A stretch of 34,759 nucleotides of DNA from positions 1 through 34,759 of the forward strand of contig JAIRXA010000085.1 of NCBI GenBank assembly GCA_031268525.1. Direction: 5' to 3'. The notes beneath the pieces were generated by a model. It searched no databases, had not been told where the DNA came from, and saw nothing but the letters and a program-made list of their open reading frames with translations. The DNA comes from Coriobacteriales bacterium (GTDB lineage: Bacteria; Actinomycetota; Coriobacteriia; Coriobacteriales; UBA8131). The stretch's first letter is position 1; each line of letters starts with the position of its first letter. Positions 9,266 through 25,582 of the stretch are shown one piece after another. The position numbers and the translations under genes are program-made.

Positions 9266-9958
9266 ATGGGACATTGCGAACACGGATTGTCCGGCAGATG
9301 TGCTACGGCGGGTACAGACTGCTATCAGAGCGGTGCTGTGCTTTCAAAAGCGAATATGACACTCGCCGATTTTAACCGCATAGCCGAACAATGCGTAGGA
9401 CGGGTAAACCAGTTCGCCCTCGGCGGCAGAGGCGACCCCGATTTGCACGAGAACTTTGAGCAGGTATTGAAGATGTGCCGCGACAACAACATCGTCCCGA
9501 ACTACACCACATCCGGTTACAGGCTTTCTGATTCGGCGATAGCGGCAAGCAAGAAATACTGCGGAGCTGTGGCGGTCAGTTGGTATCGCACCGAATACAC
9601 CATCAACGCGATAGAACGGTTTTTGTCCGCCGACGTGAAGACCAACATCAGCTGCTACATAGATTCCGAGATGAGCATGTCGCCGTGCAGTTTCGACCGA
9701 AGCGGAAAGTATGCTGTTTCATTGAAAGACACGACTATAGCCGAAGTGTGGCAATCACCGCAGTTTGAGTGTTTCCGTGAGCATTTGCGAAACGCCTGCC
9801 CCCAATGCGAAAGCCGAAGTCTGTGTATGGGCGGCTGCCCGATTGTGCCGGAGATAGTATTGTGTGCAAATCATCCCCACCAGAACAAGCTGGCGATGCA
9901 CTGTGGGCAAGGTAGAAGTGGCGAGGTAGACGTGGCGTCTGAACCTGCCAAATTTTAG
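9266..9958 (+). pseudogene. Radical SAM/SPASM protein remnant with internal deletion
   Basis: The 230-residue frame resembles radical SAM/SPASM enzymes that modify peptides, perhaps of the ACGX-system type. Recognisable parts are GTDCYQSGA, QFALGGRGDPDLHENFE, VPNYTTSGY and CGAVAVSWYRTEYT of the radical SAM barrel, then a jump after DVKTNI straight into the SPASM domain with SPCSFDRSG, CPQCESRSLCMGGCP. Family proteins are usually well over 300 residues, so roughly a hundred residues of the barrel are missing at the KTNI junction. The N-terminus before the cysteine cluster is also short. No good ribosome site precedes the ATG. I infer a decayed gene; a shortened functional protein is less likely. 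No substrate peptide gene is seen beside it. Confidence 0.65.
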
Positions 9959-10000: not shown

Positions 10001-11164
10001 TCACAAGGCCCTCCCCTGAGATGCAACTATCAGTCCATCAGCACTGTGGCCAGGGAATTCGAGGCCCTCATTGCTCATCAATCCGATCAGTTTTTCCAAT
10101 CGCGAGAAGATGCGGTGACTGGCCCTCAGGCGCTTGTCAACAAACTCTTGCCTGAGTGCTCGCTGCCCCGCGCGGGAAGGATTCATTACTTGAAGCAGCA
10201 TGGCCTCAACGTCAGCTTTCTCCAAAAGTATGATCTCCATGCTTTCCCTAACGCTGTTGAGGATTGAAACGCTACTCTGCGAGTCGCTCAACATCCTCAT
10301 TTGCCTCGACAGATACAGGCAGCGTCTTGTCAGCTCATTAAGGTCGACCATCGCTTTTGTGGACCATCGGGAAAAGTAATCCCGCTCATCGTACGGCTCA
10401 CTCAGCAGACTACAGTGCATGAGCTGAAGGGCTCTCTCAATCCATTTGTGATGCGAAGCCAAAAGAGCTGAGATGAGCTGCGTTTCTTTCACAACATCAA
10501 GCGAGTTCATCGCAACATGAAGCTGATAGTATTCAGCGAACTCTCCGGTAATGGCCGCTCTCCCAGAGGACTCCTCAAACACCCCGCCAGGCAGGAAATA
10601 CCATTTCTCCCAGTATGGCGGTATCCAGAAGCAGGTGCATTTTGACTGCTCGCTACAAAAGTGCAGCAGGTGACGGGATTGTTCCACAGAGGGTTGCAGA
10701 GCCTCGACAATCTCATCCGTCAGTCTCTCAATGCGCTCAAGCCTTATCTCCCTGACCTCGGCTTTCCTCGATCTACGCGTTTCTGCGTAGCGACAATATC
10801 TGGAAAAGGAACGCGTCCACGGAGCAACTGGCAAGCCAAGTGCGTGCAGGGATTCTCTTCTGACCAGTTCCGCTTCGGCCTCATCTGGGATACGTTGATA
10901 CGAGTTGGCATGAAGCTGCGAATGAGCGTATTCGTGTATCAGAATACCCAGAAGCTCCAGTGAGCAGCGCCTGTAACGCAGAAGGATCAAGGGCACGTCC
11001 TCTCTTGGACGAAAGCAACCCAGAGTCGACGAGCCAGTCTTCTTGTCCTTCGGAGCCTCTCCATTGAAATACGCCTTGATGCCGAAGTGCTCCTCCAGCG
11101 GTGCGATGTACAGCCGCCGGAATTCAGCGCGGGGCATGCTCCCGGTGGCAGGATATTCTTTCAT
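10001..11164 (-). CDS. HEXXH metallopeptidase-like protein
   Basis: This 387-residue protein has a zinc-peptidase motif, LLGILIHEYAHSQLH (HEYAH at 77-81), followed by EAEAELV (95-101), which supplies a candidate third ligand. The layout resembles IrrE/ImmA and ArdC-type peptidase domains found on mobile and stress-related loci. The remaining 280 residues are mostly helical and unrecognised. Its ATG overlaps the stop of the upstream DUF6273-like gene (ATGA), so the two are probably one transcription unit. The target is unknown; cleavage of a repressor or antirestriction function would be guesses by family analogy. Confidence 0.7.
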   Translation of the reverse strand: MKEYPATGSMPRAEFRRLYIAPLEEHFGIKAYFNGEAPKDKKTGSSTLGCFRPREDVPLILLRYRRCSLELLGILIHEYAHSQLHANSYQRIPDEAEAELVRRESLHALGLPVAPWTRSFSRYCRYAETRRSRKAEVREIRLERIERLTDEIVEALQPSVEQSRHLLHFCSEQSKCTCFWIPPYWEKWYFLPGGVFEESSGRAAITGEFAEYYQLHVAMNSLDVVKETQLISALLASHHKWIERALQLMHCSLLSEPYDERDYFSRWSTKAMVDLNELTRRCLYLSRQMRMLSDSQSSVSILNSVRESMEIILLEKADVEAMLLQVMNPSRAGQRALRQEFVDKRLRASHRIFSRLEKLIGLMSNEGLEFPGHSADGLIVASQGRAL

Positions 11165-11811
11165 AGCACCATCCCCTGTGTGATCTTGTCAACCGTGCCG
11201 TCGAGCGAGTACCTCAGTTCATACTTTTCGGCTTCAGAGATACTGAGGAGGAATAGCTTATCGGTAGTCGGCTCGCAGCCTGCAACTCCATATTCAGCGT
11301 TACCGTCATTTACGAAGGTTGAGGAGGCAATGATTGATTTCTCGTTAAAAGCAAAGCTTCCATCTATAAAGTCAGTGTTGAGCCATCTTCGCAGACTGCA
11401 GTCACTCCATGAGGCGTCTTCGATAGTATCATTATACTGACGGCTGCTGACATAATCTTGGGTAATAATGAGAGCTTTGCCTTCCCTGATGTCTAAAACT
11501 AACCAGTTATGTCCACCAAATCCAGATACAACTTCGCCTATAGATAGACCAGTAGGTATCCCAAGCACTTCTGAGTTTGTTGTTGATACGAGTGATGTTC
11601 CAGAAAAAGAACCTACTACATTCTCTTCCTGCTGTTCTGTGCCCAACGCGCTCCTCAGTAAAGCAACAGTGATTGCTACGGCTGCAAAAATCCCTATAAA
11701 AACGAGGATACGCCTGGCGTGAGAGTGTGCGGGTTTTGTCCTTGAGTGATTGCCACTGGCGGTTCTTTTGGTTCTGCTCTGTATGTCTGGTTTTACTTTG
11801 CCGTAAGCCAT
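11161..11811 (-). CDS. Membrane-anchored DUF6273-like protein, domain incomplete
   Basis: The 216-residue protein has a basic N-terminus, one membrane helix (about 34-52), and an extracytoplasmic domain with NWLVLDIREGKALIITQDY, SWSDCSLRRWLN, AFNEKSIIASSTFVN and KLFLLSISEAEKYEL. These are hallmarks of DUF6273, a domain often found with surface or extracellular proteins of Gram-positive bacteria. The family domain normally continues with a region ending in WLRSPG-like sequence; here the protein stops soon after EAEKY. It may be truncated. The gene overlaps the following metallopeptidase start by four bases. Confidence 0.65.
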   Translation of the reverse strand: MAYGKVKPDIQSRTKRTASGNHSRTKPAHSHARRILVFIGIFAAVAITVALLRSALGTEQQEENVVGSFSGTSLVSTTNSEVLGIPTGLSIGEVVSGFGGHNWLVLDIREGKALIITQDYVSSRQYNDTIEDASWSDCSLRRWLNTDFIDGSFAFNEKSIIASSTFVNDGNAEYGVAGCEPTTDKLFLLSISEAEKYELRYSLDGTVDKITQGMVL

Positions 11812-11949: not shown

Positions 11950-12042
11950 CTATACTGCTTCTCCGCAGCTCGGACATTCCTCGACACAACCCGCCTTGTC
12001 ATCGAACGTATAGCCGCAATGCGGGCATCTTACCTTTGCCAT
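11950..12042 (-). CDS. 30-residue double-CxxC zinc-ribbon microprotein
   Basis: The frame encodes a 30-residue protein with CPHCG at 6-10 and CPSCG at 24-28, separated by about 14 residues (YTFDDKAGCVEE), which is the spacing of a complete rubredoxin-like zinc ribbon. The start has an excellent ribosome site, GGGAGGTGA, seven bases upstream. It is the last of three short genes after the VTT gene and is followed by a strong stem-loop. Such ribbons usually bind protein or nucleic acid; the partner is unknown. The TerY-P kinase of the same operon also carries a zinc ribbon. Confidence 0.75.
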   Translation of the reverse strand: MAKVRCPHCGYTFDDKAGCVEECPSCGEAV

Positions 12043-12086: not shown

Positions 12087-12236
12087 CTATCGCTCGCGGC
12101 CGGTTCCCTTGCATCGCGGGCACTTACCGCTACCACTACAACCGCCGCACGGGCTGTTGAGATGAGTCCGCCCTGATCCCTTGCAACCCTGGCACTTACC
12201 TGACCCGCCGCATACCCAGCACTTCTCCTTAGACAT
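12087..12236 (-). CDS. 49-residue protein of four DnaJ-type CxxCxGxG motifs
   Basis: The whole protein is a DnaJ-like zinc finger: CWVCGGSG (6-13), CQGCKGSG (15-22), CGGCSGSG (30-37) and CPRCKGTG (39-46), with a short arm between motifs 2 and 3. In DnaJ this domain binds two zinc ions and helps hold unfolded proteins. Here there is no J-domain, so partner DnaK stimulation is not expected. The start has GGGAGGTG close upstream, and it overlaps the end of the preceding small gene by eight bases, indicating coupled translation. It is compact, complete and conserved-looking. Similar stand-alone fingers occur in other proteins, but a role here is inference. Confidence 0.8.
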   Translation of the reverse strand: MSKEKCWVCGGSGKCQGCKGSGRTHLNSPCGGCSGSGKCPRCKGTGRER

Positions 12237-12396
12237 AACACACCTCCCTTCTTCTGGTCGTAGCCGTCAGAATGTCAAGCATGTGGTCGTACCAATAGTC
12301 TCCAGGCACCTTCTCAGTTTCCTGTATAGGCTCCTGCAGGAGAAACGCTTGATGGTTACGCCTGGGGATGTCGTACCTGTTGCTGTGTTCAGTCAT
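12229..12396 (-). CDS. Small protein of unknown function
   Basis: This 55-residue hydrophilic protein (start MTEHSNRYDIPRR, end RREVCYV) matches nothing I recognise. The ATG at 12396 follows AAGGAG with only two bases of spacing, which is tight. Its last eight bases overlap the start of the DnaJ-finger gene, which favours a real coding frame. The centre has KVPGDYWYDHMLDILTAT, possibly one amphipathic helix. Between it and the VTT gene lie 100 bases with no other gene. Confidence 0.5.
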   Translation of the reverse strand: MTEHSNRYDIPRRNHQAFLLQEPIQETEKVPGDYWYDHMLDILTATTRRREVCYV

Positions 12397-12496: not shown

Positions 12497-13066
12497 TCAA
12501 TACAAGCTCCCGAGCACAAGAACAGAGACAGCTACAGAGACAGAGATCTTCAACAGCTTGCCAAGAAAGCACAGCGTAATAAAGCGCCAGAAACTCACCT
12601 TTAAGTAGCCCGAGGCAAACCCCACGATGTCGAAGAGAGGCAGAGGAATAGCTGCCATGGTAAAGATCACCCGTTGTCTCCCGCCCTTTAGCAGGTCGAT
12701 GAGCTTGCATAACACCTTGTTCTTGGGGGTCTCGATTTGCTTTACGTTTCTGCCAGCCATCCCCGCTAGGTAGCCCATCGTTTCGCCAAGCGTGCTTCCG
12801 GCTGCGCCCATCAGGGCTACGGCAACCGGGTTGAGGAAGGTTGCTGCGCTCATAACGACAGCAAGGCTGGGCGCAGGGGCAAATACTGTGGCATTACACA
12901 GAAAGCAAAGGGTTAATACACCGAAATAGCCCAAGCCTTCGAAGTAGGTCAGCCTATCTTGAAAGACATACGCGAGCACGGACCCAGCGACAATCAATAC
13001 GATGAACGCAATGTTGGCCGCAAGGAGCCATGGGTTTTTCCTGGGATTACCGGTAGCAACATCCAT
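12497..13066 (-). CDS. VTT-domain (DedA/SNARE-associated-like) membrane protein
   Basis: The 189-residue protein has four to five hydrophobic segments. The central part contains NATVFAPAPSLAVVMSAATFLNP and GAAGSTLGETMGYLAGMAGRN, followed by FTMAAIPLPLFDIVGFASGYLKV. This fits the VTT (YqaA/DedA-like) fold, proposed to move lipids or ions across the membrane. The charged loop before FTMAAIP and the conserved small residues in GSTLGE match family features. It starts one base after the kinase stop, so it is part of the TerY-P operon. A linked membrane protein may be a target of the kinase; this is inference. Confidence 0.8.
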   Translation of the reverse strand: MDVATGNPRKNPWLLAANIAFIVLIVAGSVLAYVFQDRLTYFEGLGYFGVLTLCFLCNATVFAPAPSLAVVMSAATFLNPVAVALMGAAGSTLGETMGYLAGMAGRNVKQIETPKNKVLCKLIDLLKGGRQRVIFTMAAIPLPLFDIVGFASGYLKVSFWRFITLCFLGKLLKISVSVAVSVLVLGSLY

Positions 13067-13067
13067 G

Positions 13068-14708
13068 TCAGCCGCCGGACAGCACGCCGATAAGAATCGC
13101 CAAGATGACGACTATGCCGGCTATCATCACGGCGGCCGAGATAACCAACGCAAGCAGCAGCACTACAACCGCAGATGCAAAGGGGGCAACTACCGTCAGG
13201 AGCCCTGAGAGCCCGTAGTCCCTTAGCGCAGGCGGTCTTTGAGCGTATGCCAGTCCATATACAACTGGCAGGAGAAAGCAGGCAACGACCGACAGTATGG
13301 CGTAAACCGTTGTTGCCACAGGATCGGCAATACTCTTTCCCATAATGCCAATGAAAAGTTGGCGGACTACTGGCACAAAGTACAACGATGACAACACCGC
13401 CACTAAAAGGGAGCCGCCCATGGTGATACCCCAATATGCCTCCGGCCTTTCCCACCAGTCGGTTATCAGTGCTGGATTTTCCGCTTGCATGTTCTGTCTG
13501 GCAACCCGCCACAGCGAGCGTGGAGACTTAAGCAAAGATGGCCTGGCAACAACACCGCTGAAAGCGGTAGGGGTTGCAACCGTCGTCTTGTTTGTGGCTT
13601 GGTTTGCCGCAGGGTTTGGGGCGTGCAGGTTAATAGGTGGCTTGGGGATGAAGCTGCTAGCCTTGCTCTTGTGTCTCTTAAGCGCCGCGCAATGAGGGCA
13701 GCTGTTCAGGCCGTTGAAATAGTAATGATGCTTGTCTTTGCTGCACTGAACCCGGCAGGACTTCATGCTTCGTCCGAGCGCTTCGTGCCAGTCCGTGGCA
13801 TTAGGGCGCAGGGAGGGACTGCCGTAGCCTTTATCGAACGCAAGCGTGAACAACCTTGCTATGTCCGGATGAGTTTCACTCAGGCTGGGGGTGCGGGCAG
13901 CGAGTGGTTTGTATCCCGCTTTGAAACAGTATTCGTTGCGCTCGACGGAGTCGTTTGCCTTGCCAGGAGCGACTGATGATAGGCGCTTGCCTACCTGTAG
14001 GCCATTAAAGGGTGGTGTTCCGTTCATGGTGAGCAGGAAAATGTGCTCTGCCAGCGCAAATACATCGGTCTCTTTGGTGAAGGAGCTACCGGTTTTCCGG
14101 AACAGCTCCCCATACCCTCCTTTAAGCCCTTTGACCCTTGCCAGCAGTTCAGGCGCTACGAATCCGTCGTAGGCGACGGGGCAGGGGTAGGTGTGCCCTG
14201 TGGCATGGTCGGTGAACTGGAAAGAGTTGGTGTCCAGTATCGCCACCTCGCAGGTCTTGGGATTGACCCTGATATTATTGGGATTAAAGTCTCCAATCAC
14301 ATATTCGCTCGCATGCAGTCCAGCCACAGTGATGGCGATGTTGCGGCAGATTGTCAACCTGTAACGTAGGTCCAACGCCGCATACTTGTTGGGCGGATAG
14401 GGATGCAGCTCATTTATATCCACCCCTGATGCGAACTCCTTCATGGAAAAGCCTGCAAAGGAGCCGTTCTGGTGGTAAAACAGCTCCTGTGGCCAGGCCA
14501 AATGCTTAAGTATGCTTCCCGACGGCGGGCGTGTGATCATGTACCGAATCTTAGATTCGAGATCCGGTGCGAGGCTCTGTGGCTTGAATACTTTGGCAAG
14601 TACACCGCTCTGGCCCTTGATGCGGTGTATACAGGCCTCGCCTTCGCTGGCTATAGGTGGCTCAACAAGTTCGCATCTGCCTGAGCCGTTCTGGCTGAAC
14701 ACATGCAT
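13068..14708 (-). CDS. TerY-P-type protein kinase with zinc ribbon and membrane segments
   Basis: This 546-residue protein is a divergent Ser/Thr-type kinase of the TerY-P triad. Visible elements are a VAIK-like lysine (LAKVF, K39), catalytic loop IGDFNPNNIRV (139-147), metal site LDTNSF (DTN replaces DFG at 159-161), and VAPELL (184-189). It is followed by a zinc ribbon with cysteines at 318/322 and 337/340, typical of these kinases, then a disordered linker and three to four membrane helices (about 429-545). It probably sits in the membrane with its kinase in the cytoplasm. GGGAGGT supports the start. It lies 18 bases after the phosphatase gene. Activity is likely but the altered DFG should be tested. 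Confidence 0.85.
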   Translation of the reverse strand: MHVFSQNGSGRCELVEPPIASEGEACIHRIKGQSGVLAKVFKPQSLAPDLESKIRYMITRPPSGSILKHLAWPQELFYHQNGSFAGFSMKEFASGVDINELHPYPPNKYAALDLRYRLTICRNIAITVAGLHASEYVIGDFNPNNIRVNPKTCEVAILDTNSFQFTDHATGHTYPCPVAYDGFVAPELLARVKGLKGGYGELFRKTGSSFTKETDVFALAEHIFLLTMNGTPPFNGLQVGKRLSSVAPGKANDSVERNEYCFKAGYKPLAARTPSLSETHPDIARLFTLAFDKGYGSPSLRPNATDWHEALGRSMKSCRVQCSKDKHHYYFNGLNSCPHCAALKRHKSKASSFIPKPPINLHAPNPAANQATNKTTVATPTAFSGVVARPSLLKSPRSLWRVARQNMQAENPALITDWWERPEAYWGITMGGSLLVAVLSSLYFVPVVRQLFIGIMGKSIADPVATTVYAILSVVACFLLPVVYGLAYAQRPPALRDYGLSGLLTVVAPFASAVVVLLLALVISAAVMIAGIVVILAILIGVLSGG

Positions 14709-14726
14709 CTCGTACCTCCCGGGCCG

Positions 14727-15680
14727 TTACTCATGCGACTCAGGGTCTTCCAAGACCTGTGCCGCATCTTTGTTTTCATTGGGTAAGCTTGTTGGATGTG
14801 ATCCTGAATCGGTGCCTGTGACATCAGCATCATTCCAGCTCGGATACAGCTCGCAATCGTGCTTACGGTGCCACTCGCTCACCAGCCTCTTCCAGTCGGG
14901 TTCCCTGTAGTACGCATCCTCAAGACAGGTTGCCCTCGCGTCACCTACGATAACCACTACGGTTACGTCATCGTTGTTGGTTGCCTCGTCGGGCACCTGC
15001 TCGATAGAGCGTTTCACCCGGATGTTTCCCTCTTTGTTGGTGATGTTCAGCTTGTCAGCGGGGTAGTCTAAGAGGAAGCGTAGCGGTGGGATGTAAAGTC
15101 CGTCGCTGAAATCTTCAAGCAGCGGATTACAGACAAAGCCCAGAAAACCGTCGCTGGTCAGGAGAACCGATGACACCGGCTTTGGGTGTTTGCCAAAGAC
15201 CCACCAATCCTCGCCAAAGCTCAATGGGTATACACGCCCGTACTCGTCGTTTTGCTCTTCGGTGACCTTGGCATAGTGACCGTCTGCTTGCAGGGCGATG
15301 ATGCCACTGTCGCCAGACTGGCCGAAGTACAGGTCTTTGCCGATAAGCACGGCAGTGGCGAGGGTCGTGTCGCAGTCGCGTAGGTCGTATCCGCGCACTC
15401 TGGCAAGAAGTTCCACGGCTTCCCTGGCGCAACAATAGGCATCCTTGAGGGACTTGAACATCATCTCGATACTCGGCGTAGAGCCTTTGAGGTGCTCTGC
15501 CAGGAACACCATCGTTACAAATGAAGCCAGCTTCGACGCTTCGTCGGAGTGCGCCGCACTTCCCAGACCGTCGGCAACCACCCCAATGGCGATCCCATCA
15601 TCTGTAACGAACTCAGCGAGGCTGTCCTGGCATACGGGGTGGGAAGGACCGCCTTTGATCGCCTTGAATATGCGTGGCAT
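14727..15680 (-). CDS. PP2C-type protein phosphatase of the TerY-P triad
   Basis: This 317-residue cytoplasmic protein resembles PP2C metal-dependent Ser/Thr phosphatases. Metal-binding motifs are VVADGLGSAAHS (Asp37-Gly38), SGDSG in place of the usual VGDSR (near 122-126), LTSDGF (176-178) and NNDDVTVVVI (235-244). It probably reverses phosphorylation by the neighbouring kinase. The start at 15680 has AGGAGG six bases upstream; the longer frame to 15725 would overlap the vWA gene. The C-terminal 65 residues are acidic and likely disordered. It begins ten bases after the vWA stop, in the operon order vWA-phosphatase-kinase. Confidence 0.87.
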   Translation of the reverse strand: MPRIFKAIKGGPSHPVCQDSLAEFVTDDGIAIGVVADGLGSAAHSDEASKLASFVTMVFLAEHLKGSTPSIEMMFKSLKDAYCCAREAVELLARVRGYDLRDCDTTLATAVLIGKDLYFGQSGDSGIIALQADGHYAKVTEEQNDEYGRVYPLSFGEDWWVFGKHPKPVSSVLLTSDGFLGFVCNPLLEDFSDGLYIPPLRFLLDYPADKLNITNKEGNIRVKRSIEQVPDEATNNDDVTVVVIVGDARATCLEDAYYREPDWKRLVSEWHRKHDCELYPSWNDADVTGTDSGSHPTSLPNENKDAAQVLEDPESHE

Positions 15681-15690
15681 AGGAGCCCTC

Positions 15691-16422
15691 CTAATCGTTA
15701 AGCCAGTCGCAGGTGTCCTGCTCAAAGTTGTCCGGCTGTACTGCGGTCTTTACCTTGTCGCCAGGGCTAGACTCGGATACAGCGCGCATCGACTTATGTA
15801 CCCAATCGAATAATTTGGTAAAGTCATAGTCAGTCAGCCGCGTCACTTTCTCCCCAGCCAGCTTGTGAAGCGTCTCAGAACTGTAGCTGCCGCAGCCAAA
15901 TGCCAGCAGCTTCAGCTTGCCGTCCGCCTCCATCTGCCTCACAACCTCGGCGGCTTCGTCTACAGGCGTGTTGGGATAGCCGTCCGTAATGAGCAACACC
16001 CAAGGCTTATAGGGTCGGATGCCCTGACTGAGGTAACGGCGGTACTGGTTATCCACTTCGGTGAGGGCCGCCTTGACAGCCTTGTTCATTTCGGTGCTAC
16101 CCTCTGGTCGCAAGGTGTGATCAGCCATGGCAGTCACCGGCGCAAACGGCTGGATGTACTTGTTGGCATCGCTGAAGGTGATAATACCAACATCAAGCAC
16201 ACTGGCAGTCTTCGGGTCCTTGAGCATGTCGCGTTTGAATCGAGCAATTCCCTTGTTCAGCTCGTCGATCGGGGTACCAGACATAGACCCCGACACGTCC
16301 ACAAGTAGCATCAAGGCCTCGCGGTTCAGTGTCGACATCTCGATTGCCGTGCTTGGCCCGTCCCGAAAAAACCCGTCGTCGTGACTGTCGGAGCCTTGAT
16401 TTTTCCTGCCGAAAATAGACAT
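15691..16422 (-). CDS. TerY-like von Willebrand factor A domain protein
   Basis: The 243-residue protein has a full MIDAS metal site: DVSGSMS (42-48), Thr in EGSTEM (near 110) and Asp in LITDGYPN (147). The size and sequence order match TerY, the vWA member of tellurite-resistance-linked TerY-P modules, where it acts as a scaffold or phosphorylation target in the cytoplasm. The tail is short and acidic. A GAGGT site supports the ATG. It is the first gene of the minus-strand operon and faces the SNF2 gene across a 326-base divergent region. Confidence 0.87.
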   Translation of the reverse strand: MSIFGRKNQGSDSHDDGFFRDGPSTAIEMSTLNREALMLLVDVSGSMSGTPIDELNKGIARFKRDMLKDPKTASVLDVGIITFSDANKYIQPFAPVTAMADHTLRPEGSTEMNKAVKAALTEVDNQYRRYLSQGIRPYKPWVLLITDGYPNTPVDEAAEVVRQMEADGKLKLLAFGCGSYSSETLHKLAGEKVTRLTDYDFTKLFDWVHKSMRAVSESSPGDKVKTAVQPDNFEQDTCDWLND

Positions 16423-16748
16423 AGTGATACCTCTTTCTGTCTTGGTTGGTGGCGTCCCGTCACCTTGTCATTTCTCATACTGAAGCCTTCAGTGTATGTG
16501 TCGGAATTTTCAACTTGAGTATTCATGGCTCCACGAATTCGTTTCGGGCGAAACCGTAGGCCTATAAAGGACAGAGGAGTTCGATAGGGATTTCCATCAT
16601 CCGTTCGTGCATGCTCTGAGTGAGCTTGATTGAGTGTAACGTGCGTCGCCGACGACTATCGAGAATTCCGTTCACTCGTCCCGGGCAGATAAGCTTTTCT
16701 CATTTATTGATGGGCGTACTGCGCCCTGATTCGAGAAAGGTGAACGCA
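16423..16748. promoter_or_regulatory. Divergent intergenic region with two adjoining palindromes
   Basis: The 326 bases separate the TerY-P operon (minus) from the SNF2 operon (plus), so both promoters should lie here. Two short symmetric elements adjoin: ACGAATTCGT at 16533-16542 and GTTTCGggcGAAAC at 16541-16554. A small hairpin, GGGCG-TACTG-CGCCC, lies about 20 bases before the SNF2 start. I could not pick a clear -35/-10 pair. A shared operator is plausible. Confidence 0.4.
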
Positions 16749-19700
16749 ATGGCAATCACTGAGATCGAACTGATACCACTTGACGACCGGTCTTCGGGGG
16801 GTGCAGCAGTTAATGCTGCCTTACTTGGTCCCAGACAAGCTCTGACCTTATCGGTGCGAAACCTGGGCAAGGTAGATCCTGAGTATATCGCCCGGCTCTG
16901 TGGTGTTTCCACCGAGGATGCCATCGACAGGCTCAGTGGCCATATCTATCAAAACCCTGAAACCTGGCAAGGCGATGCAATGCAGGGCTGGGAGCTTGCC
17001 GGGGGATACCTCTCGGGCAACGTCTACCTCAAACTGGACGCCGCTTTGAGAGCCCGCAGCAACTCGAACGCCCACGGACGTTTTGAGGCCAACATTCAGG
17101 CGCTCAAGGAGGTGCTGCCAGCCGCTATACCGTTTGCCAACATCTACTACGGCCTCGGCACGCCGTGGATCAAAGAGAGCATCTACAACGCCTTTGTAAA
17201 GGAGGTGCTGTTCGGTATCAGCGGTGGGGGTCGACTAGATCTGGTCACATACGACAAGGCCAAGAACAAGTGGTGTATCCGCTCCAAGCGCAAGTTGTCC
17301 AAGTCAACACGCGGCGATTTTGGCACCACCTATCAGGGTTGCGGTACTCTTGAGCTTTTAGAGGATCGCATGAATCTCAAGTCCACAGTTGTTAAGCATG
17401 AGATCAGCGATCCTGCCGCCAAGGGCGGGACTCGCAGGGTCACAGACGAGAAGGCCACCGCTTTTACTCAACGCCAGCAGGAACGCCTTGGAGAAGCATT
17501 CGTCACATGGGTAGGTAATAACGAGGCTGTTCAGTGCAGCATCGCATCCAGTTTTAACGCTCGTTTCGGCTACATGCTCCGCAAGAGGTTCAGCGGCAGT
17601 TATCTTGATTTCCCAGGTCTTGCAGAGGGTATCGAGCTGTTCCAGTGTCAAAGGGATGCGATCGCCCGCATCCTGCTCACCCCCAACACTCTGCTTGCCC
17701 ATGAGGTAGGTGTCGGCAAGACTTACACCATGATCGTCTCTGGCATGCTGATGCGTCAGATGGGAATCTCCAGCAAAAATCTCTATGCCGTACCAAACGA
17801 TATTGTGGGGCAGTGGGAAGACTTCTTCCGTACCCTCTACCCAGAGGCAGCCATACTCGTCATCACTCCTGACGTGATGGTGCCCACACTTAGGAACGAG
17901 ACACTTAAGGAGGCCTGCACCGGCGACTACGATGCCATCATAATGTCGCACAGCGTATTTGAGCGCATCCCCCTGCGCCGCCCGCCAAAGCCTGTCGAGC
18001 GACGTGGCAGTAGCAAGAAGGCGGAGTCCTGCAAGCCCTACAAGCATGTCTTGTACTGGTTTGAAGACTTGGGCGTAAACACGCTGTTCATTGATGAGGT
18101 GCATAAGTATAAGAACATTCCGCTGCACAGCCGCATCAACAACGTATATGGCCTCAACATAACCGGCGCCGACACGTCTGCTGACGTTTTGGCCAAGGTG
18201 CGCTGTGTACAGAAAATGAACGGTGGCGGAGGCGTGGTGCTCGCCACTGGCACCCCCATCACCAATTCTCTCGCAGACGTGTTCGCCTGGCAGTCGATGT
18301 GTCAGCCCTCACTGCTCAAAATGCTCAACATAGACACCTTTGACAAGTGGGTGTCCACCTTCGCTGAGCGCACTGAGGAATACGAGATAACCCTCGCTGG
18401 CAAGCCGCGTCTGACCACACGCTTCCGGTGCTTTTGCAACCTCCCTGAGCTAGCGTCTCTCATGAGCCAGTTCACCGACTTTCACCGGCTCGACATGCGG
18501 GATGACCTGCCAAAACTTGACAAGTATAGCGAGCATGTTGTGGCTATGAATGAATATCAGGAGTGGGTATTCGAGGATTTCTCGGGCCGCATCGAGAAGA
18601 TCAGGTGCAGGCAGGTGCATCCCAAGGACGACAACATGCTGATGGTCTACACTGATGCCCGCAAGACCTCTCTGGATGTGCGTCTGTTCGACACCGCTTT
18701 CGTGAGCAAAATGGAGTGCAAGGTGCAACGCTGCGCTCGACAGATCTACGAGATCTACCTCGCGGGTGCGGATGGGCTACTCACACAACTCGTATTCTGT
18801 GACACGTCCACACCCAAGAATAGTTTTAACATATTCGACGAGTTGACCAACGAGTTGCTTGCGCTGGGAATCCCGCGCAGCGAGATCGCTTTTGTGCAAG
18901 ACAACACCACCACCGAGCAGTATAAAAAGGCATTGGTCGCCGAGATGAACTCGGGACGGGTGCGCATCTTGGTAGGCTCGACCGCCAAGGGCGGCACAGG
19001 CTTCAACGTCCAGGAGCGGCTGGTTGCCATACATCATCTCGACACACCCTGGCGCCCCGCAGACATGATCCAGCGCGAGGGGCGTGGCCTGCGCCCAGGC
19101 AACACCAATAAGCAGCTCTTTATTTACCGCTACCTCACAGAAAAGAGCTTTGATGCCTACCAGTATCAGATATTGGAGACCAAACAGGAGCTGATAGCCC
19201 AGTTCATGTCAGGGTCCTTCCCTTTCCGCGAAGTGGAGGATTTGGGAGCGGCAGTGCTGGACTACGGCCAGGTAAAAGCGCTTTTGGAGGATAACCCCCG
19301 CATCAAGGAGCGCCTGGACATCGCGAACGACATAACGCGGCTGCGTCTCCTGCTCAAGGGCGACGAGGAGAACCGTTTGGCGCTCAGAAGTGAACTGGCG
19401 GCCATACCAGCCAAGATCGCCGAGATGGACGCGCATCTGGCCGCGGCAAGTGCCGATAGTCTAACCGCCGCAGCCGCGCCCGCTCCGCTTGCAACACAAG
19501 AGGACAGGAAGCGGCACGGGGCGTACATCCTCTGGGCGGCAGAGGATATCGCTTGCGGCGAGCGCCGGGAGCTGGGTTCCTACCGAGGATTCGGCCTAAG
19601 CATTGCCAAGGAAGCCGAGGGCGAAGACCTCGCAGTGTACGCCGTACTCGACGGGCAAGGGCAGTACAGGGTCAAGCTGGGTGAGAGTGCCGCAGGCGCT

Positions 19701-19895
19701 ATAACCCGTCTGGATAACCGTCTCTCCCGCCTCGCCAAGGACATTGAGGACATGAAAGTCGACAGGGAGGCGCTCATCAATCGTCGCGACGACATCGCCA
19801 ATTCGCTGGGTACCCCCGAGAGCTACAGCTCTCAGATAAAGGCCAAACAGCTCAAGCTGGACGAGCTGGATACACAGATACAGGAAGGTGCGTGA
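16749..19895 (+). CDS. Large SNF2-type (SF2) helicase, DarB/LtrC-like
   Basis: This 1048-residue protein is a DNA-translocating ATPase of the SF2/SNF2 group. Walker A is LAHEVGVGKTYT (316-327), motif II FIDEVHKYKN (448-457), motif III LATGTPITN (498-506), motifs V-VI STAKGGTGFNVQERL and QREGRGLRPGN (744-785). The N-terminus has WELAGGYLSGNVYLKL, found in the helicase half of DarB/LtrC-like proteins of conjugative elements and phages, but no methylase motif (NPPY) is visible. The C-terminus is a coiled coil (about 985-1048). The ATG at 16749 follows AAAGGTG; an earlier in-frame ATG at 16620 has no such support. The next gene overlaps its stop by four bases (GTGA). Confidence 0.87.
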   Translation: MAITEIELIPLDDRSSGGAAVNAALLGPRQALTLSVRNLGKVDPEYIARLCGVSTEDAIDRLSGHIYQNPETWQGDAMQGWELAGGYLSGNVYLKLDAALRARSNSNAHGRFEANIQALKEVLPAAIPFANIYYGLGTPWIKESIYNAFVKEVLFGISGGGRLDLVTYDKAKNKWCIRSKRKLSKSTRGDFGTTYQGCGTLELLEDRMNLKSTVVKHEISDPAAKGGTRRVTDEKATAFTQRQQERLGEAFVTWVGNNEAVQCSIASSFNARFGYMLRKRFSGSYLDFPGLAEGIELFQCQRDAIARILLTPNTLLAHEVGVGKTYTMIVSGMLMRQMGISSKNLYAVPNDIVGQWEDFFRTLYPEAAILVITPDVMVPTLRNETLKEACTGDYDAIIMSHSVFERIPLRRPPKPVERRGSSKKAESCKPYKHVLYWFEDLGVNTLFIDEVHKYKNIPLHSRINNVYGLNITGADTSADVLAKVRCVQKMNGGGGVVLATGTPITNSLADVFAWQSMCQPSLLKMLNIDTFDKWVSTFAERTEEYEITLAGKPRLTTRFRCFCNLPELASLMSQFTDFHRLDMRDDLPKLDKYSEHVVAMNEYQEWVFEDFSGRIEKIRCRQVHPKDDNMLMVYTDARKTSLDVRLFDTAFVSKMECKVQRCARQIYEIYLAGADGLLTQLVFCDTSTPKNSFNIFDELTNELLALGIPRSEIAFVQDNTTTEQYKKALVAEMNSGRVRILVGSTAKGGTGFNVQERLVAIHHLDTPWRPADMIQREGRGLRPGNTNKQLFIYRYLTEKSFDAYQYQILETKQELIAQFMSGSFPFREVEDLGAAVLDYGQVKALLEDNPRIKERLDIANDITRLRLLLKGDEENRLALRSELAAIPAKIAEMDAHLAAASADSLTAAAAPAPLATQEDRKRHGAYILWAAEDIACGERRELGSYRGFGLSIAKEAEGEDLAVYAVLDGQGQYRVKLGESAAGAITRLDNRLSRLAKDIEDMKVDREALINRRDDIANSLGTPESYSSQIKAKQLKLDELDTQIQEGA

Positions 19896-21004
19896 TCCAG
19901 ATGAAGAAGGATGCCAATACAGGCGTTGCCCTGCAGGCAGCCATCAGTTCGGTCGCTGACCTCTATGTTGGCGCTCTCAATCAGGGGCTCTCGCCATCCA
20001 ACTTACCTCCGTTCATGCTTTGGGGGCCGCCGGGGGTCGGCAAGTCGCAGGGCGTGAGGCAGATCGCGCTCGACGTTGGGAAGCGCACTGGCAGGAAGGC
20101 CGTAGTCACCGACGTGCGTCTGATGCTCTTCAATCCCGTAGACCTGCGTGGCATACCGGTGGCCAATGCCGAGCGTACGCTAGCGGTTTGGCTCAAGCCG
20201 GAGGTTTTTGATATGGACGCCGACGACGGCATCGTCAACGTCCTGTTTTTGGACGAGATCAGTGCCGCACCACCGTCCGTGCAGGCCACGGCCTACCAGA
20301 TCACCTTGGATCGCCGCATCGGCGAACATAGGCTGCCAGATAACTGCATCGTCATAGCAGCAGGCAACCGTGTGACCGACCGCTCGGTGGCCTACAAAAT
20401 GCCCAAGGCACTCGCGAACCGGCTTTGCCACATCGACGTGCGTGCGGACCACAGGACGTGGAAGGCTTGGGCTGTGCGATCTGGCATAGACCCCCGCATC
20501 CTGGGCTTCTTGGAGTTTCAGCCAGACCGGCTCATGCGTTTTGACACTGCGACAGACGACCATGCCTTCGCCACGCCACGCTCTTGGGAGATGCTCAGCC
20601 GCGTGCTCGACTGCCTCACTGGCGATGACAGCGGGCTATTTCTACTGACGTCGGGCTGTGTTGGCGAGGGGGTGGCTACGGAGTTCCTCACCTGGATTGA
20701 TGTTTATGATAGTCTGCCCGACATTGCTGCCATCTTTGACGGCAAGGATGTTGAGGTGCCCAAATCGACTGACGCCTTATATGCGCTCGTTTCCTCGATG
20801 GTTGCCTACGCCAGGGACAACCTGGATGATGAATGGCGCATCGAACGCTCAATAGCCTACGGGACACGCCTGCCAGTGGATTATACGGTTGTACTCTTCC
20901 GCGATTACCAATCTATCAGTGAGCAGTCTAAGCGTTTGCTCATGCGCTCAGAAGCTCTCAACGACTGGAGCATAGCACACGGGAGATTCTTTAATGATAT
21001 CTGA
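19892..21004 (+). CDS. MoxR-like AAA+ ATPase
   Basis: The 370-residue protein is a cytoplasmic AAA+ ATPase of the MoxR type. Walker A is LWGPPGVGKSQG (43-54), Walker B VLFLDEISAAP (117-127) and sensor 1 IAAGNR (155-160); an ANRL segment follows. MoxR proteins act with vWA partners to remodel or insert cofactors into targets. The GTG start at 19892 overlaps the helicase stop and has AGGAAGG upstream; an ATG at 19901 is an alternative. Its end overlaps the vWA gene by 11 bases, so the three genes form one operon. Confidence 0.85.
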   Translation: MIQMKKDANTGVALQAAISSVADLYVGALNQGLSPSNLPPFMLWGPPGVGKSQGVRQIALDVGKRTGRKAVVTDVRLMLFNPVDLRGIPVANAERTLAVWLKPEVFDMDADDGIVNVLFLDEISAAPPSVQATAYQITLDRRIGEHRLPDNCIVIAAGNRVTDRSVAYKMPKALANRLCHIDVRADHRTWKAWAVRSGIDPRILGFLEFQPDRLMRFDTATDDHAFATPRSWEMLSRVLDCLTGDDSGLFLLTSGCVGEGVATEFLTWIDVYDSLPDIAAIFDGKDVEVPKSTDALYALVSSMVAYARDNLDDEWRIERSIAYGTRLPVDYTVVLFRDYQSISEQSKRLLMRSEALNDWSIAHGRFFNDI

Positions 21005-22280
21005 TGACGGATACGCGCGCAGAGCTGCGGATCGGCTCCTGCGCTCGCGCACGCGCCTGCTGCTCGACCATGGTTTCTTTGGACTACTGCTGATGCACAT
21101 GCACTTCGCCCTGGACGATACATTCGGCATGGCGGCGACAGACGGCGACTTCATCTACTTCTCCCCAGAGTTTCTGGCAAACATCAGCGACGAGGAGTTG
21201 GACTTCATCATGATGCACGAGGTGATGCATACAGCGCTTGCCCACACCTCGCGTGTCAGCGAGCGGGACAGTTTCGCCTTCAACGTGGCCTGCGACATCG
21301 TGGTTAACTCTATCATCATCAAGGAGATGGGAAGGGGGTCGTTCTCGCTCGAGAAGTATGGCCCAGCCATGCACCTGGCGCCCAGTGGCAGGGAGGGTTA
21401 TCTCTACTCCGCTGAGGAGGTCTACGAGATGCTTGGTAAATACAAATTACAGTGCGACCAGGCCTCTGATGGAGCAGGAGGAGGCACAGCGAAAGGCAAA
21501 GGTGCGGCCAGTGGCAGGCGTGAAGCGAACGGCAGAGGTACGGCCAGTGGCAGGCGTGAAACGAACGACAGAGGCGAGATACTTGATGACCACTCGCGCT
21601 GGGGCAAGCATGCTGGTGACGACAGGCATCAGGCGACTTGGCGGCAGCGCATCCTGGCTGCTGCAAAGGCTATGGAGCGCAGGGAACGGGATTGCGGCAG
21701 GCTCCCGCTGTTCGCTGAGAGGCTTGTCAGGGAGCTTGCGGAGTCAAAGGTGGACTGGCGCTCCGTACTTCAGAATTTCATTCAGGAGGAGGTCTTCGAC
21801 TACGGCTTCCAGCCACCGGACAAGCGCTACCAGGATGGCGACTTCCTGCTGCCAGACTTCAACGATAAGCGCAACGTGCTACACAACGTCATGTTCTACG
21901 TCGATGCTTCCGGGTCGGTATCCAACCAGGAACTTGTCGAAGCCATGAGCGAGGTCGTCGGGGCGGTCGAGCAGTTCGGCGGCTGCCTGACTGGCTACGT
22001 CTCCTTCTTTGACGCGAAGGTTGGCAAGCCCCTGCCATTCGATGATGTGTCCGACCTTAACAGAGCTGCCGTGTGCGGCGGTGGCGGCACCAGCTTCCAG
22101 ACCGTGTTCGATAGCCTCCAAGGTTTTGCCAAAGACAACCCCGTCTCCTGCGCCATAGTACTCACAGATGGCTATGCGCCCTACCCTGCAGAGAGTGCAG
22201 CGGCAGATATACCGATACTCTGGCTCATCAACAACGAGAAGAAGACCCCTCCTTGGGGACTGGTAGTGAGGATGGATTAA
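20994..22280 (+). CDS. HEXXH metallopeptidase-vWA protein (DUF2201-like), MoxR partner
   Basis: The 428-residue protein joins a zinc-peptidase-like domain and a vWA domain. HEVMH (75-79) with Asp in FNVACDIVVN (near 101) forms a likely zinc site; the MIDAS motif is YVDASGSVS (302-310), with Thr in GGTSFQT and Asp in LTDGYAP. This layout matches DUF2201-type proteins encoded beside MoxR ATPases. Between the domains lies a Gly/Arg-rich stretch that is a tandem duplication in DNA. The start is supported by GGGAGA upstream. Whether it cleaves protein is untested. Confidence 0.85.
   Translation: MISDDGYARRAADRLLRSRTRLLLDHGFFGLLLMHMHFALDDTFGMAATDGDFIYFSPEFLANISDEELDFIMMHEVMHTALAHTSRVSERDSFAFNVACDIVVNSIIIKEMGRGSFSLEKYGPAMHLAPSGREGYLYSAEEVYEMLGKYKLQCDQASDGAGGGTAKGKGAASGRREANGRGTASGRRETNDRGEILDDHSRWGKHAGDDRHQATWRQRILAAAKAMERRERDCGRLPLFAERLVRELAESKVDWRSVLQNFIQEEVFDYGFQPPDKRYQDGDFLLPDFNDKRNVLHNVMFYVDASGSVSNQELVEAMSEVVGAVEQFGGCLTGYVSFFDAKVGKPLPFDDVSDLNRAAVCGGGGTSFQTVFDSLQGFAKDNPVSCAIVLTDGYAPYPAESAAADIPILWLINNEKKTPPWGLVVRMD
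21501..21572 (+). repeat. In-frame 36-base tandem duplication
   Basis: Two 36-base units (21501-21536 and 21537-21572) differ at three positions, all G to A. They encode GAASGRREANGR and GTASGRRETNDR in the linker of the HEXXH-vWA protein. The linker tolerates length change because the unit is in frame. Confidence 0.8.
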
Positions 22281-22302
22281 GCAGACAGATGAAGAACTCG
22301 GA

Positions 22303-22791
22303 TTACTCTACTGTTTTGCTGGGCTTCGCCAGCACATCATTGAGGCCAATGTAGCCTCTGGAGAAAGCCAAGAGCTTGAGACTGTATGTATCCATCAGCT
22401 TGTTTGAGTAGGAGACGATCTCATCAATTATCTCAGCTGTAACTACCATGTCCTTATAGCGTGAACTGTTGCGATAGATAATCTCACGCATCTCCGTCAC
22501 CACCGAAAACGAGCCACTGAGCAAAGTCGTGTTGATGAGACAGCACGCCCACATGGCTTCTTCCAGTTTTTCTGTCGGGAGGCTGAATGGCAGGAAGCTA
22601 GCGACGGTGATCCGCTCGCCTTTTCCGTTTGTTTCTATAAAGAAGCAGGCGTCCAGGTCTTTACCTCTGATGTTGTAGTGGATGGTGAGCTCTTTGTCGT
22701 CGGCCTCATAATGCCAGCCGCGTTTGTCAAAATAACTCTTAATCGTCGCGTACGTTGCTGTTGCGTTTGATGTCTTGGTCTTGTCTCCCAT
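22303..22791 (-). CDS. YbjN-like (type III chaperone-fold) protein
   Basis: The 162-residue protein has the alternating helix and strand pattern of YbjN-like proteins: an N-terminal helix ATIKSYFDKRGWHYEADD, then strands LTIHYNIRG and ACFFIETNG, and a helix after FSLPTEKLEEAMWACCLINTT. Such domains bind partner proteins as chaperone-like adaptors. A GGGAGG site seven bases upstream supports the ATG at 22791. It follows the DUF5663 gene by two bases and is the last gene of the HerA operon, convergent with the vWA gene. The assignment rests on pattern, not on a catalytic motif. Confidence 0.6.
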   Translation of the reverse strand: MGDKTKTSNATATYATIKSYFDKRGWHYEADDKELTIHYNIRGKDLDACFFIETNGKGERITVASFLPFSLPTEKLEEAMWACCLINTTLLSGSFSVVTEMREIIYRNSSRYKDMVVTAEIIDEIVSYSNKLMDTYSLKLLAFSRGYIGLNDVLAKPSKTVE

Positions 22792-22793
22792 GG

Positions 22794-23777
22794 TTAATCC
22801 TCCCGAGTATTCATCCAAAGGCCGATCAGTCCTTTGGTGTCTATTTCGCCTTTGTTCAACGCTTCGAAGTGAGGGTAGAGATCATCCACTGTGCGAAGCG
22901 TGCTGTAGAGCATCACACCAAACAGCTTGTTCCCTGGTAGGCTGCTACGGTAGTAGGCGGAGGAAACATAGTCCAGCCTGTCACGCTCTGGGTCAAAAAT
23001 AAAGCATCCGACCGACAGATACTGGTTTATTTCGTTTATGCATCTTAGGAATTCGCTGCCTTGGGCTGCGTCGATAGCAAGTATTACCTTTGCGACTATT
23101 CGCAGACATCCAGACTGAGGAATTACCCTGAAACAAACAGGCACTCTCGTGCTCCTGAACTTGATAGCTGTGGTAATGGTGCGTTTTTCATCATCGCTGG
23201 AGTACAGCAATTCCTCATTGTCAAGAAAAGCGCAGAGTTTGCCAAAAATCAATTCAGCCTGCCCCAACTCATCCAAGCCGTCCATGTCAGCTCGCTCCAA
23301 GAGTTTGCGCCGCGCGGCATCTTCTGAAGCAATCTTCTCAAGTATTGCGGCACTGCGCTCCGTCAACTCCTTCTTAATCTCGCCGAAGACAGCAGCTACC
23401 ACCATGCGATAGTCCGGGCAATTTCTCGCAAGCCACATCATTGCGCCGAACTCGCTCATTATGGCCTCCGAATCCAAGCTCTGGCCATGCGAGGCTCTGT
23501 TCTCGTAGAAGCGCTCGAGCGTCTGACGGTTCTCGGGTATGTCGAGAGGGAAGTTACGACTCAGCCATCCGCGCATTATCTCGGTGTCTTTGTCTACAAA
23601 CGCCCCAAACTCATCGATTATCTCATCGCTCAGGCCTTCGGTTATCTTTTTTCCAACGCGCATCTCCAAATCGGCATATAGGTCCGAAATGAACCGAGTC
23701 TTCCGTTTTTCCGGCATCGAGCCAAGCCCTATCTCTTCGAGAAAGTCGTTGTCTAGTTTGAGCTTATCCATTATCAT
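22794..23777 (-). CDS. DUF5663 plus YbjN-like adaptor protein
   Basis: The 327-residue protein begins with a DUF5663-like helical domain: FLEEIGLGSMPEKRKTRFI, YADLEMRVGKKITEGLSDEI, DEFGAF (about residues 12-58). A second, partial copy of similar helices lies near WLARNCPDYRMVVAAVFGEI. The C-terminal 130 residues resemble the YbjN fold of the next gene (strands TITTAIKF, VPVCFRVI, then RCINEINQYLSVGCFIFD). DUF5663 is often attached to secretion or DNA-transfer ATPases, which fits its position. The ATG at 23777 overlaps the HerA stop (ATGA); an ATG six bases later is possible. Confidence 0.7.
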   Translation of the reverse strand: MIMDKLKLDNDFLEEIGLGSMPEKRKTRFISDLYADLEMRVGKKITEGLSDEIIDEFGAFVDKDTEIMRGWLSRNFPLDIPENRQTLERFYENRASHGQSLDSEAIMSEFGAMMWLARNCPDYRMVVAAVFGEIKKELTERSAAILEKIASEDAARRKLLERADMDGLDELGQAELIFGKLCAFLDNEELLYSSDDEKRTITTAIKFRSTRVPVCFRVIPQSGCLRIVAKVILAIDAAQGSEFLRCINEINQYLSVGCFIFDPERDRLDYVSSAYYRSSLPGNKLFGVMLYSTLRTVDDLYPHFEALNKGEIDTKGLIGLWMNTRED

Positions 23778-25582
23778 GCCTTCTTTCTGCTCTTACCCTT
23801 GCGGCCAGTTTTTCCGTCAGTTTTGTCTCCGGGCTGGTTGGGCTGGTCGCCTCCCGGCTTCTCAGTTTGCGCAGCGCTGGTCTTCTGCGTTTTCTTATGC
23901 CTCACATCCTGCCGCTTCGCTTCTAAAAACGACAAGTCGTCCCATGAGATCGAGGTGGTGCTGTCAGCCTGTTGAGACTTTGGCTCCACCTTGGCTTCTT
24001 TGTCTTGAGCAGGCGGGGTTTTACTCTCTGGTGCAGTCATGCTGGCAAGCATGTCTGCAAGTTCTTGGACGGTGCCCGTATCAGTACCACTGCCCTCGAT
24101 TTGTGCGCGGACGGTCTCTATTTTCTTCTTTTGGCTCTGCTTGGGCTTGGCACTTTTTGTATCGACCTCTTTGCCATCCCTCCGCCGCCAGATGCCCTCT
24201 TCTACCATGCGTTTGCGTATCTGTGTCGCCGTGGTGTCATCTTGCGCTTTTGGCGCAAGTGGTACAGAGACGACAACGGGCTTAAGCTCCCTGTTGTCGA
24301 ACAAGAGCCTGACCATCGCTTTGTAGCGCCCGATGTGGCGCACAGAGTCGATGTCGATGTCAAACTGGTCGGCAATCACTCGTGCATCATTGGCTCCCAC
24401 CCTGAAGCAGGCGATGGTGCCAACGTTGCCGAGGACGGCCTCCAGGAGAGAATGGTCCTGGCTTCCGGTGTGTAGATTAAAACGGATCAGCTGGCGGATG
24501 TTCTGGTTTGCGAGGATAAAGCCGCAGCCGAACTTGCGTGCCTCAGCCAACAACACAGCGAAGTCTGGGGTTGCGAAACGCTGGAACTCGTCGATGTACA
24601 CGTAGTGCTTACGCAATGGTTCGTCGCCTTTGAGGCACCGCTTCATGATGGCGTTCTTGATAAGCGCTACAAAATACGAGCCTATGAAGTCCGCTACACT
24701 GGTGCCAACGAGAGCCTCGGGTATCTTAACGATGAGTATCTTGCCGTTCTCGATAATCTCCTCAATGTCGATAGTTGTCTTGCCGCCGCCGAGAAAGAAG
24801 CGCAGCGTGGGGTCGGACACCCACTCGTGTATTTTAGAGAGGAACCAATGGATGGTGGAATCCCAATCGCTGTCACGACGGGAGCGTTTCTCCAGGTTCC
24901 ACTGTTCAACCAGACGCGTGCTCTTGATGGACTTCAGCGCATCGCCCAGATGGGCATCGTTGATGCTCAGAGCTTCAACCTCGGTAATGCTGCGCTCGAA
25001 TGGATAGCCGGGGTCCATGATGGTCTCCAGGCGCAAGCGCATAAGCTCTTCGCCACGAGGGCCGTAGTAACCTTCTGGCATCCTGCTGGATATCAGGGCG
25101 TTGAGGGTTTGCACAACAAGTGTCTTTTTTGCTTCATCGTTACAGTCAGCGTTCAAGAGATTGATTATCGGAAGGTACTCAGTGTTGGAGAAGTCCGCCA
25201 ACACTACGTCATTGAGGCGGTTTGGTGGAATTTTGGCCAATATCCTGTCGGCGGTCTTGCCGTGGGGGTCAATGAACGTAATCCCGTTGCCTTGGTTGAT
25301 ATCCTGCATTCCTGCATACTCAAACAAGTTGCTTTTGCCAGTTCCGGTCTTCCCAAAAAACCATGTTTGCTGCAATCTGTCTTCGGGAAACTGCCTGCAT
25401 TCCAGAATCTCTCCATGACTGAGGTAGTGCCCCAGGCTGACTCCCAAATCCAGGGTGTCCAACTCGTTTTTGAGATTGGAGTCCAGATTATAGCTGTCGC
25501 TTGTTTCTTTGCGATTCACTCTCTTGCCGCCTCTCCTGCTGATCTCTGAGTCGTTGATGAGTATTGTTTCAAAATCCCTCAT
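23774..25582 (-). CDS. HerA/VirD4-like ATPase
   Basis: This 602-residue protein belongs to the FtsK-HerA-VirD4 family of ring ATPases that pump DNA or protein. Walker A is FFGKTGTGKSNL (75-86), then ITFIDPHGKTADRILAKIP (101-119), typical of TraG/VirD4-like members, Walker B YVYIDEFQRF (327-336), and ILANQN (356-361). No membrane helices are seen, so it is a soluble type rather than a classical coupling protein. The C-terminal 160 residues are low complexity, ending in a basic KGKSRKK. No relaxase or mating-pore genes are in the window, which argues for a conflict-system role over conjugation. No strong ribosome site precedes the ATG. Confidence 0.85.
   Translation of the reverse strand: MRDFETILINDSEISRRGGKRVNRKETSDSYNLDSNLKNELDTLDLGVSLGHYLSHGEILECRQFPEDRLQQTWFFGKTGTGKSNLFEYAGMQDINQGNGITFIDPHGKTADRILAKIPPNRLNDVVLADFSNTEYLPIINLLNADCNDEAKKTLVVQTLNALISSRMPEGYYGPRGEELMRLRLETIMDPGYPFERSITEVEALSINDAHLGDALKSIKSTRLVEQWNLEKRSRRDSDWDSTIHWFLSKIHEWVSDPTLRFFLGGGKTTIDIEEIIENGKILIVKIPEALVGTSVADFIGSYFVALIKNAIMKRCLKGDEPLRKHYVYIDEFQRFATPDFAVLLAEARKFGCGFILANQNIRQLIRFNLHTGSQDHSLLEAVLGNVGTIACFRVGANDARVIADQFDIDIDSVRHIGRYKAMVRLLFDNRELKPVVVSVPLAPKAQDDTTATQIRKRMVEEGIWRRRDGKEVDTKSAKPKQSQKKKIETVRAQIEGSGTDTGTVQELADMLASMTAPESKTPPAQDKEAKVEPKSQQADSTTSISWDDLSFLEAKRQDVRHKKTQKTSAAQTEKPGGDQPNQPGDKTDGKTGRKGKSRKKA

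Follow-up and report, generated by a model that had tools for sequence, protein, structure and literature searches.

We analyzed a stretch of DNA of 34,759 nucleotides (the window) around a short ORF on its minus strand at positions 12236-12087. The features at and around this ORF are as follows.

11161..11811, minus strand: DUF6273 protein, downstream of the 49-aa gene
11950..12042, minus strand: 30-aa CxxC...CxxC zinc-ribbon-like ORF, MAKVRCPHCGYTFDDKAGCVEECPSCGEAV, 44 nt downstream of the 49-aa gene
12087..12236, minus strand: gene for a 49-aa twin-doublet putative zinc microprotein, ATG at 12236, TAG at 12087-12089, 8 Cys
12099..12122, minus strand: motif IV, CPRCKGTG, predicted zinc site B with motif I (putative pairing)
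12126..12149, minus strand: motif III, CGGCSGSG, predicted zinc site A with motif II
12171..12194, minus strand: motif II, CQGCKGSG, predicted zinc site A with motif III
12198..12221, minus strand: motif I, CWVCGGSG, predicted zinc site B with motif IV (putative pairing)
12241..12248, minus strand: Shine-Dalgarno sequence GGGAGGTG serving the 49-aa gene, 4 bases 5' of its ATG
12229..12396, minus strand: 55-codon ORF of uncertain existence, its end sharing 8 nt with the start of the 49-aa gene
12497..13066, minus strand: VTT-domain (DedA/TVP38-type) membrane protein, upstream of the 49-aa gene
13068..14708, minus strand: kinase-like protein of a TerY-P-like triad, weak kinase-domain similarity
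14727..15725, minus strand: PP2C-type phosphatase of the triad, clear family match
15691..16422, minus strand: von Willebrand A (vWA) protein of the triad, clear family match

Translation of the minus strand from 12236 to 12087 gave a 49-aa protein, MSKEKCWVCGGSGKCQGCKGSGRTHLNSPCGGCSGSGKCPRCKGTGRER followed by a stop codon, with a net charge of +8, a pI of 9.4 and a single aromatic residue; the plus strand of the same interval held no ORF. Four CxxCxGxG motifs beginning at plus-strand coordinates 12221, 12194, 12149 and 12122 fill the protein, and no further motif of this type was found in the six frames of the 34.8-kb window. A J domain with its HPD motif and a substrate-binding domain were both absent, and the free-standing J-domain-less protein with four complete CxxCxGxG motifs that had been proposed in an earlier note on this DNA was confirmed on the minus strand at 12236-12087. 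Dinucleotide shuffling of the window (200 shuffles) resulted in a mean of 0.4 motifs per window and a largest cluster of 1 as compared to the 4 observed, and the expectation for the full four-motif DNA pattern was 0.00. Together these results ruled out a chance ORF. The Shine-Dalgarno duplex energy was -14.4, a value equalled or beaten at 0.17% of the window ATGs, and the earlier claim of a strong ribosome site (top 0.2% of window ATGs) held up. We consider it highly probable that the 49-aa ORF is a genuine gene whose product is a compact CxxCxGxG zinc protein. The reported overlap with a preceding gene was found as an 8-nt overlap with the 55-codon ORF at 12396-12229. However, a search for relatives of that ORF detected none and its ribosome site is weak, so its status as a preceding gene is unproven.

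The 30-aa ORF downstream (11950-12042) has a ribosome site that is stronger than that of the 49-aa gene and among the strongest in the window. It also returned zinc-ribbon-like family scores and possibly encodes a second micro-zinc protein. Upstream, the vWA, PP2C and kinase-like genes at 13068-16422 resemble the TerY-P triad, which combines a vWA protein, a PP2C phosphatase and a kinase with a C-terminal zinc ribbon and has been proposed to be a metal-sensing phosphorylation switch accompanying restriction and defence systems (PMC11090510). The kinase-like protein (13068-14708) is the weak member of this comparison, with no Pfam match and a C-terminal Cys motif and membrane segments that were seen by eye. 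It was matched in 2 of 60 related genomes, one of them weakly, so this island segment is probably accessory. The interval 16620-25582 encodes an SNF2-type helicase with weak DrmD/BrxHI similarity, a MoxR-type ATPase, a DUF2201 vWA protein and a mad8-like ATPase (PADLOC E 1.2e-14), and is a possible undescribed defence/stress island. A short protein with a SPASM domain but no clear radical SAM cluster motif is encoded on the plus strand at 9266-9958, beside a minus-strand protein (10001-11164) with a weak match to aKG-HExxH hydroxylases. No phage structural gene was recognized among the window proteins scanned, and a prophage origin of the gene was rejected on this basis.

The description of the protein as a DnaJ zinc finger was sustained only in part. 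The motif type agrees and the cysteines are kept in homologues, but the linkers between motifs are 1-7-1 residues as compared to 9-18-6 in the DnaJ of the same genome (L001), the PF00684 score is 15.0 bits against a cut-off of 32.7, and the structural superposition described below is loose. The further claim that the motifs stand in DnaJ order had to be dropped, as near-identical motifs give no readable order and the spacing differs from that of DnaJ. A profile built from the window protein and its relatives aligned to the E. coli DnaJ zinc domain (1exk, 5.6e-6) with the motifs in order and also matched anti-TRAP (3lcz, 7.4e-6). Structural kinship of these proteins with the DnaJ zinc domain and anti-TRAP is likely, with a distinct geometry. 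The 49-aa protein is a DnaJ zinc finger by motif, not by family membership. A separate compact class, here called twin-doublet, in which the motifs of each pair stand one residue apart and which occurs mostly in phage contigs, is the better fit. The pattern of this class (CxxCxGxG-x-CxxCxGxG, a linker, then CxxC(xGxG)-x-CxxCxGxG in a short free-standing ORF) was found in the 49-aa protein.

Structure prediction with AlphaFold2 gave a mean pLDDT of 92.0 and a pTM of 0.65 for the window protein, and 92.1 and 0.65 with the phage relative L045 placed first, from an input alignment of 18 sequences only and for a Gly/Cys-rich type of sequence that can converge. The window protein model contained no helix. 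Its bridge residues (5, 14, 23, 29, 38 and 47) lie symmetrically around the middle linker (5/47, 14/38, 23/29), and those of the L045 model (3, 12, 21-22, 25-26, 35 and 44) are also symmetric. This is the pattern expected of a nested hairpin in which motif II pairs with III and motif I with IV, and self-closure of each motif is also compatible with it. Foldseek superimposed B. subtilis anti-TRAP (2bx9) on the window model at 0.7 A over 24 columns and, in a further comparison, anti-TRAP matched at 0.6 A over 23 columns, in each case about half of the protein. The top match for the window model was BSD2 (6ekb) with a superposition of 5.1 A, and full-length superpositions on DnaJ and BSD2 were loose (5-8 A, TM 0.41-0.46; 7.1 A for DnaJ). 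Foldseek E-values were weak, the best being 0.015. We read these models as a probable anti-TRAP-like inner unit of motifs II and III within a whole that would be a DnaJ-type array in its most reduced form. The fold and the first zinc site (II+III) are predicted by the models and the second (I+IV) is a candidate site.

Relatives were searched for in cellular and viral sequences. No match was obtained in the 60 related genomes with the window protein as query, and the exact one-doublet DNA pattern returned a single convincing case besides the window genome among 397 genomes of the phylum. This case is a free-standing 63-aa protein (L019) in a genome of the same order (G277). It adjoins what look like phage capsid and scaffold genes, the neighbor that was scanned has no match other than a PHROG without assigned function, and the locus is apparently a prophage. 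The window gene is a near-orphan within its phylum. The earlier note had taken an absence of homologues with preserved cysteines from related genomes as evidence that would speak against the gene. That absence was nearly complete (0/60 relatives and one in the 397 phylum genomes), and the homologues lie elsewhere. The protein search of genome contigs returned nine loci, of which three were ordinary DnaJ proteins (L009, L011, L013) and were set aside as such. The other loci comprised three related Lachnospiraceae proteins with C-terminal motif arrays, one archaeal and one Bacteroidales protein with motif pairs, and an 87-aa protein (L008) in which two complete doublets accompany a hydrophobic N-terminal segment.

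When viral contigs were searched with the one-doublet pattern, many short free-standing proteins came up in which the second doublet was present though not required. These proteins measured 48 aa (L045, L076, L028), 50 aa (L055), 52 aa (L039), 56 aa (L088), 57 aa (L075), 62 aa (L035), 66 aa (L040) and 73 aa (L071), and the free-standing relatives ranged from 48 to 96 aa with a spacing of 1-(6 to 22)-1. Twin-doublet copies were also found embedded in large proteins (L051, L143). Many of the viral pattern matches were Cys/Gly low-complexity repeats and were discarded. The four-motif pattern with a linker of 7 was found in three viral contigs, including the low-complexity L063, and with a linker of 6 in twelve. 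Alignment of 18 sequences, window protein included, demonstrated that all eight cysteines were invariant and the motif glycines nearly so, where the search pattern had fixed just one of the two doublets. The 1-6-1 phage relatives were mostly acidic whereas the window protein is basic (+8), and because of this opposite charge the function is possibly not common to the class. A signal-peptide-like start was seen in one twin-doublet protein (L024, 4155-4385) and a lipoprotein-like start in another (L092, 4529-4792), and judging from these N-termini some members may be exported. Using tblastn, the window protein returned nothing from plasmids and phages even at an E of 10, a result that is not evidence of absence because a large part of a protein of this type may be hidden by low-complexity filtering. 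Five matches in the phage collection were inspected; four were in or on genes annotated as hypothetical protein and one was in an unannotated stretch. Further matches in this collection fell within genes annotated as putative helicase or DNA polymerase, or within unannotated records.

No Pfam or NCBIfam model was matched over threshold by the window protein, and its matches to PHROGs were at chance level only. Among known systems, anti-TRAP (RtpA; PF15777, NF058604) is likewise a free-standing zinc protein of about 50 aa with a CxxCxGxG-x6-CxxCxGxG hairpin, the corresponding linker of the window protein being 7. This hairpin with a 6-7 residue linker is present in the window protein by spacing and by profile and fold matches, with zinc binding putative. 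However, anti-TRAP consists of one such unit and a C-terminal helix that forms the trimer core, whereas the window protein has two motif pairs and lacks the helix, and its anti-TRAP family scores are below cut-off (10.0 vs 32 bits in Pfam, 11.4 vs 65 in NCBIfam). The DnaJ cysteine-rich domain (PF00684, CR-type; 1exk) shares the four CxxCxGxG motifs and the in-order profile match, but has the longer linkers given above and belongs to a protein with J and C-terminal domains, neither of which is present here. The BSD2/ZnJ proteins are also four-motif zinc proteins without a J domain, but are eukaryotic plastid proteins with longer linkers and Rubisco or photosystem clients. The Pfam families DUF7895 and DUF5351, which have no assigned function, matched 18/18 and 14/18 members of our alignment at E-values up to 1, while the window protein remained under their cut-offs (17.8 vs 27 and 14.8 vs 27). 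The same length, the same 1-(6 or 7)-1 geometry and all eight cysteines are found in phage twin-doublet microproteins (such as L045, L088, L039 and L035), which match phrog_3931 weakly. These differ in being mostly acidic, with several encoded beside a terminase large subunit gene, while the basic window protein lies in no recognizable prophage.

The motif and the fold type are already known; for the compact free-standing twin-doublet form we found no description in the open-licence literature. The closest described protein is that of phage Riggi with two C-terminal CxxCxGxG motifs (PMC3853051). The CxxCxGxG zinc unit, familiar from DnaJ and anti-TRAP, also occurs in a minimal version that stands alone as a protein and has a tight geometry of its own, and the window copy indicates that a twin-doublet gene can occupy a cellular accessory island.

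In the explanation that we favor, the product of the gene is a two-zinc microprotein that stands alone, belongs to the compact twin-doublet CxxCxGxG class and has the predicted fold of a single short nested hairpin. One zinc is predicted to be held by motifs II and III in the fashion of anti-TRAP, and the second would be bound by motifs I and IV, as by the outer pair of DnaJ, with the linkers trimmed to a minimum. In function the protein could be an adaptor or antagonist that docks in a zinc-dependent manner, as anti-TRAP does on TRAP, with its partner presumably encoded in or near the island. It would be co-produced with the neighboring 30-aa zinc ribbon from an accessory island placed, by a presumed link, behind the TerY-P-like triad. 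Because the J domain and substrate-binding domain are absent, the protein is not an Hsp40 and would be unable to drive DnaK alone. The adaptor reading draws on anti-TRAP because it is the best-understood free-standing protein with this zinc unit at near-equal size and it docks on one target and needs zinc. This zinc protein has 53 residues and two CxxCxGxG motifs, binds and blocks TRAP, and requires zinc (PMC2896485). As a compromise figure, we give the explanation as a whole, a two-zinc hairpin adaptor from the island, an even chance; the adaptor role, taken by analogy, is tentative and falls somewhat short of even. The acidic 1-6-1 relatives set against the basic window protein warn that the same scaffold may serve different partners.

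A different role, that of a stand-alone thiol chaperone or oxidoreductase like plastid BSD2/ZnJ, whose zinc-binding cysteines would keep hold of reduced or unfolded clients or exchange disulfides without DnaK, is suggested by BSD2 (6ekb) heading the Foldseek list and by ZnJ2 and ZnJ6, J-domain-less proteins that use four CxxCxGxG motifs to bind zinc and that prevent aggregation (PMC5818400, PMC7865324). We consider this role unlikely given the loose superposition (5.1 A), the longer linkers of the BSD2 type and the one aromatic and few hydrophobic residues that would be available for clients. The charge of +8 and pI of 9.4 would suit a basic zinc protein that binds RNA, DNA or the ribosome and takes part in regulation or in the island's nucleic-acid-processing machinery. 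Short matches to the zinc fingers of UvrA and the Q antiterminator and the SNF2-type helicase encoded by the island point the same way. This reading has a small chance of being correct, as the protein has no recognized nucleic-acid-binding motif and its closest-spaced phage relatives are mostly strongly acidic.

With 8 Cys in 49 residues and a second tiny Cys-rich ORF adjoining, the protein could also be a small metallothionein-like zinc store or buffer. This is quite improbable, however, as conservation of the motif glycines comes close to that of the cysteines, the model predicts an ordered fold, and metallothioneins are not usually made of perfect CxxCxGxG repeats. Decay of an ordinary DnaJ gene would account for the motif type and the in-order profile alignment to DnaJ, but would need several precise deletions to produce the 1-7-1 spacing, which independent free-standing relatives also have. 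There are no J-domain or C-terminal-domain remnants nearby, the gene has its own ribosome site, and another locus of the genome encodes a DnaJ zinc domain. We rejected this origin as very improbable on the spacing, the absent remnants and the DnaJ zinc domain elsewhere in the genome. The remaining candidate, a precursor peptide that the radical SAM/SPASM protein encoded 2.1 kb away (9266-9958, plus strand) would modify, fits a short Cys/Gly-rich product near a SPASM protein that scores over its NCBIfam cut-off. Yet the SPASM gene is on the opposite strand with two genes in between, the SPASM protein is short with an N-terminal part without a clear CxxxCxxC, no SPASM neighbor was noticed beside the phage relatives of the same spacing, and the cysteines are already explained by perfect zinc motifs. 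There is only the slightest chance that the protein is such a peptide.

The linker-6 and linker-7 patterns yielded 11 distinct phage loci, with L024/L025/L029 and L039/L156 each counted as one and L063 excluded. In five of the 11 (L031, L035, L039/L156, L088, L154) a terminase large subunit gene was found within about 0.7 kb. At one locus (L157) the neighbor is an HNH endonuclease with an additional match to a terminase-small-subunit family, and at another (L051) the twin-doublet module is inside a protein with a head-maturation-protease domain; a linker-8 protein (L143) is a second case of a module in such a protein. As terminase is one gene among dozens, this proximity looks more than accidental for the partial contigs examined. 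It is conceivable, though rather doubtful, that the twin-doublet microproteins are a separate phage family tied to head assembly and DNA packaging, from which some cellular genomes, this one included, have co-opted a member as an adaptor that senses zinc or redox state in stress/defence islands of the TerY-P type. For the phage members, terminase adjacency provides a concrete and testable lead.
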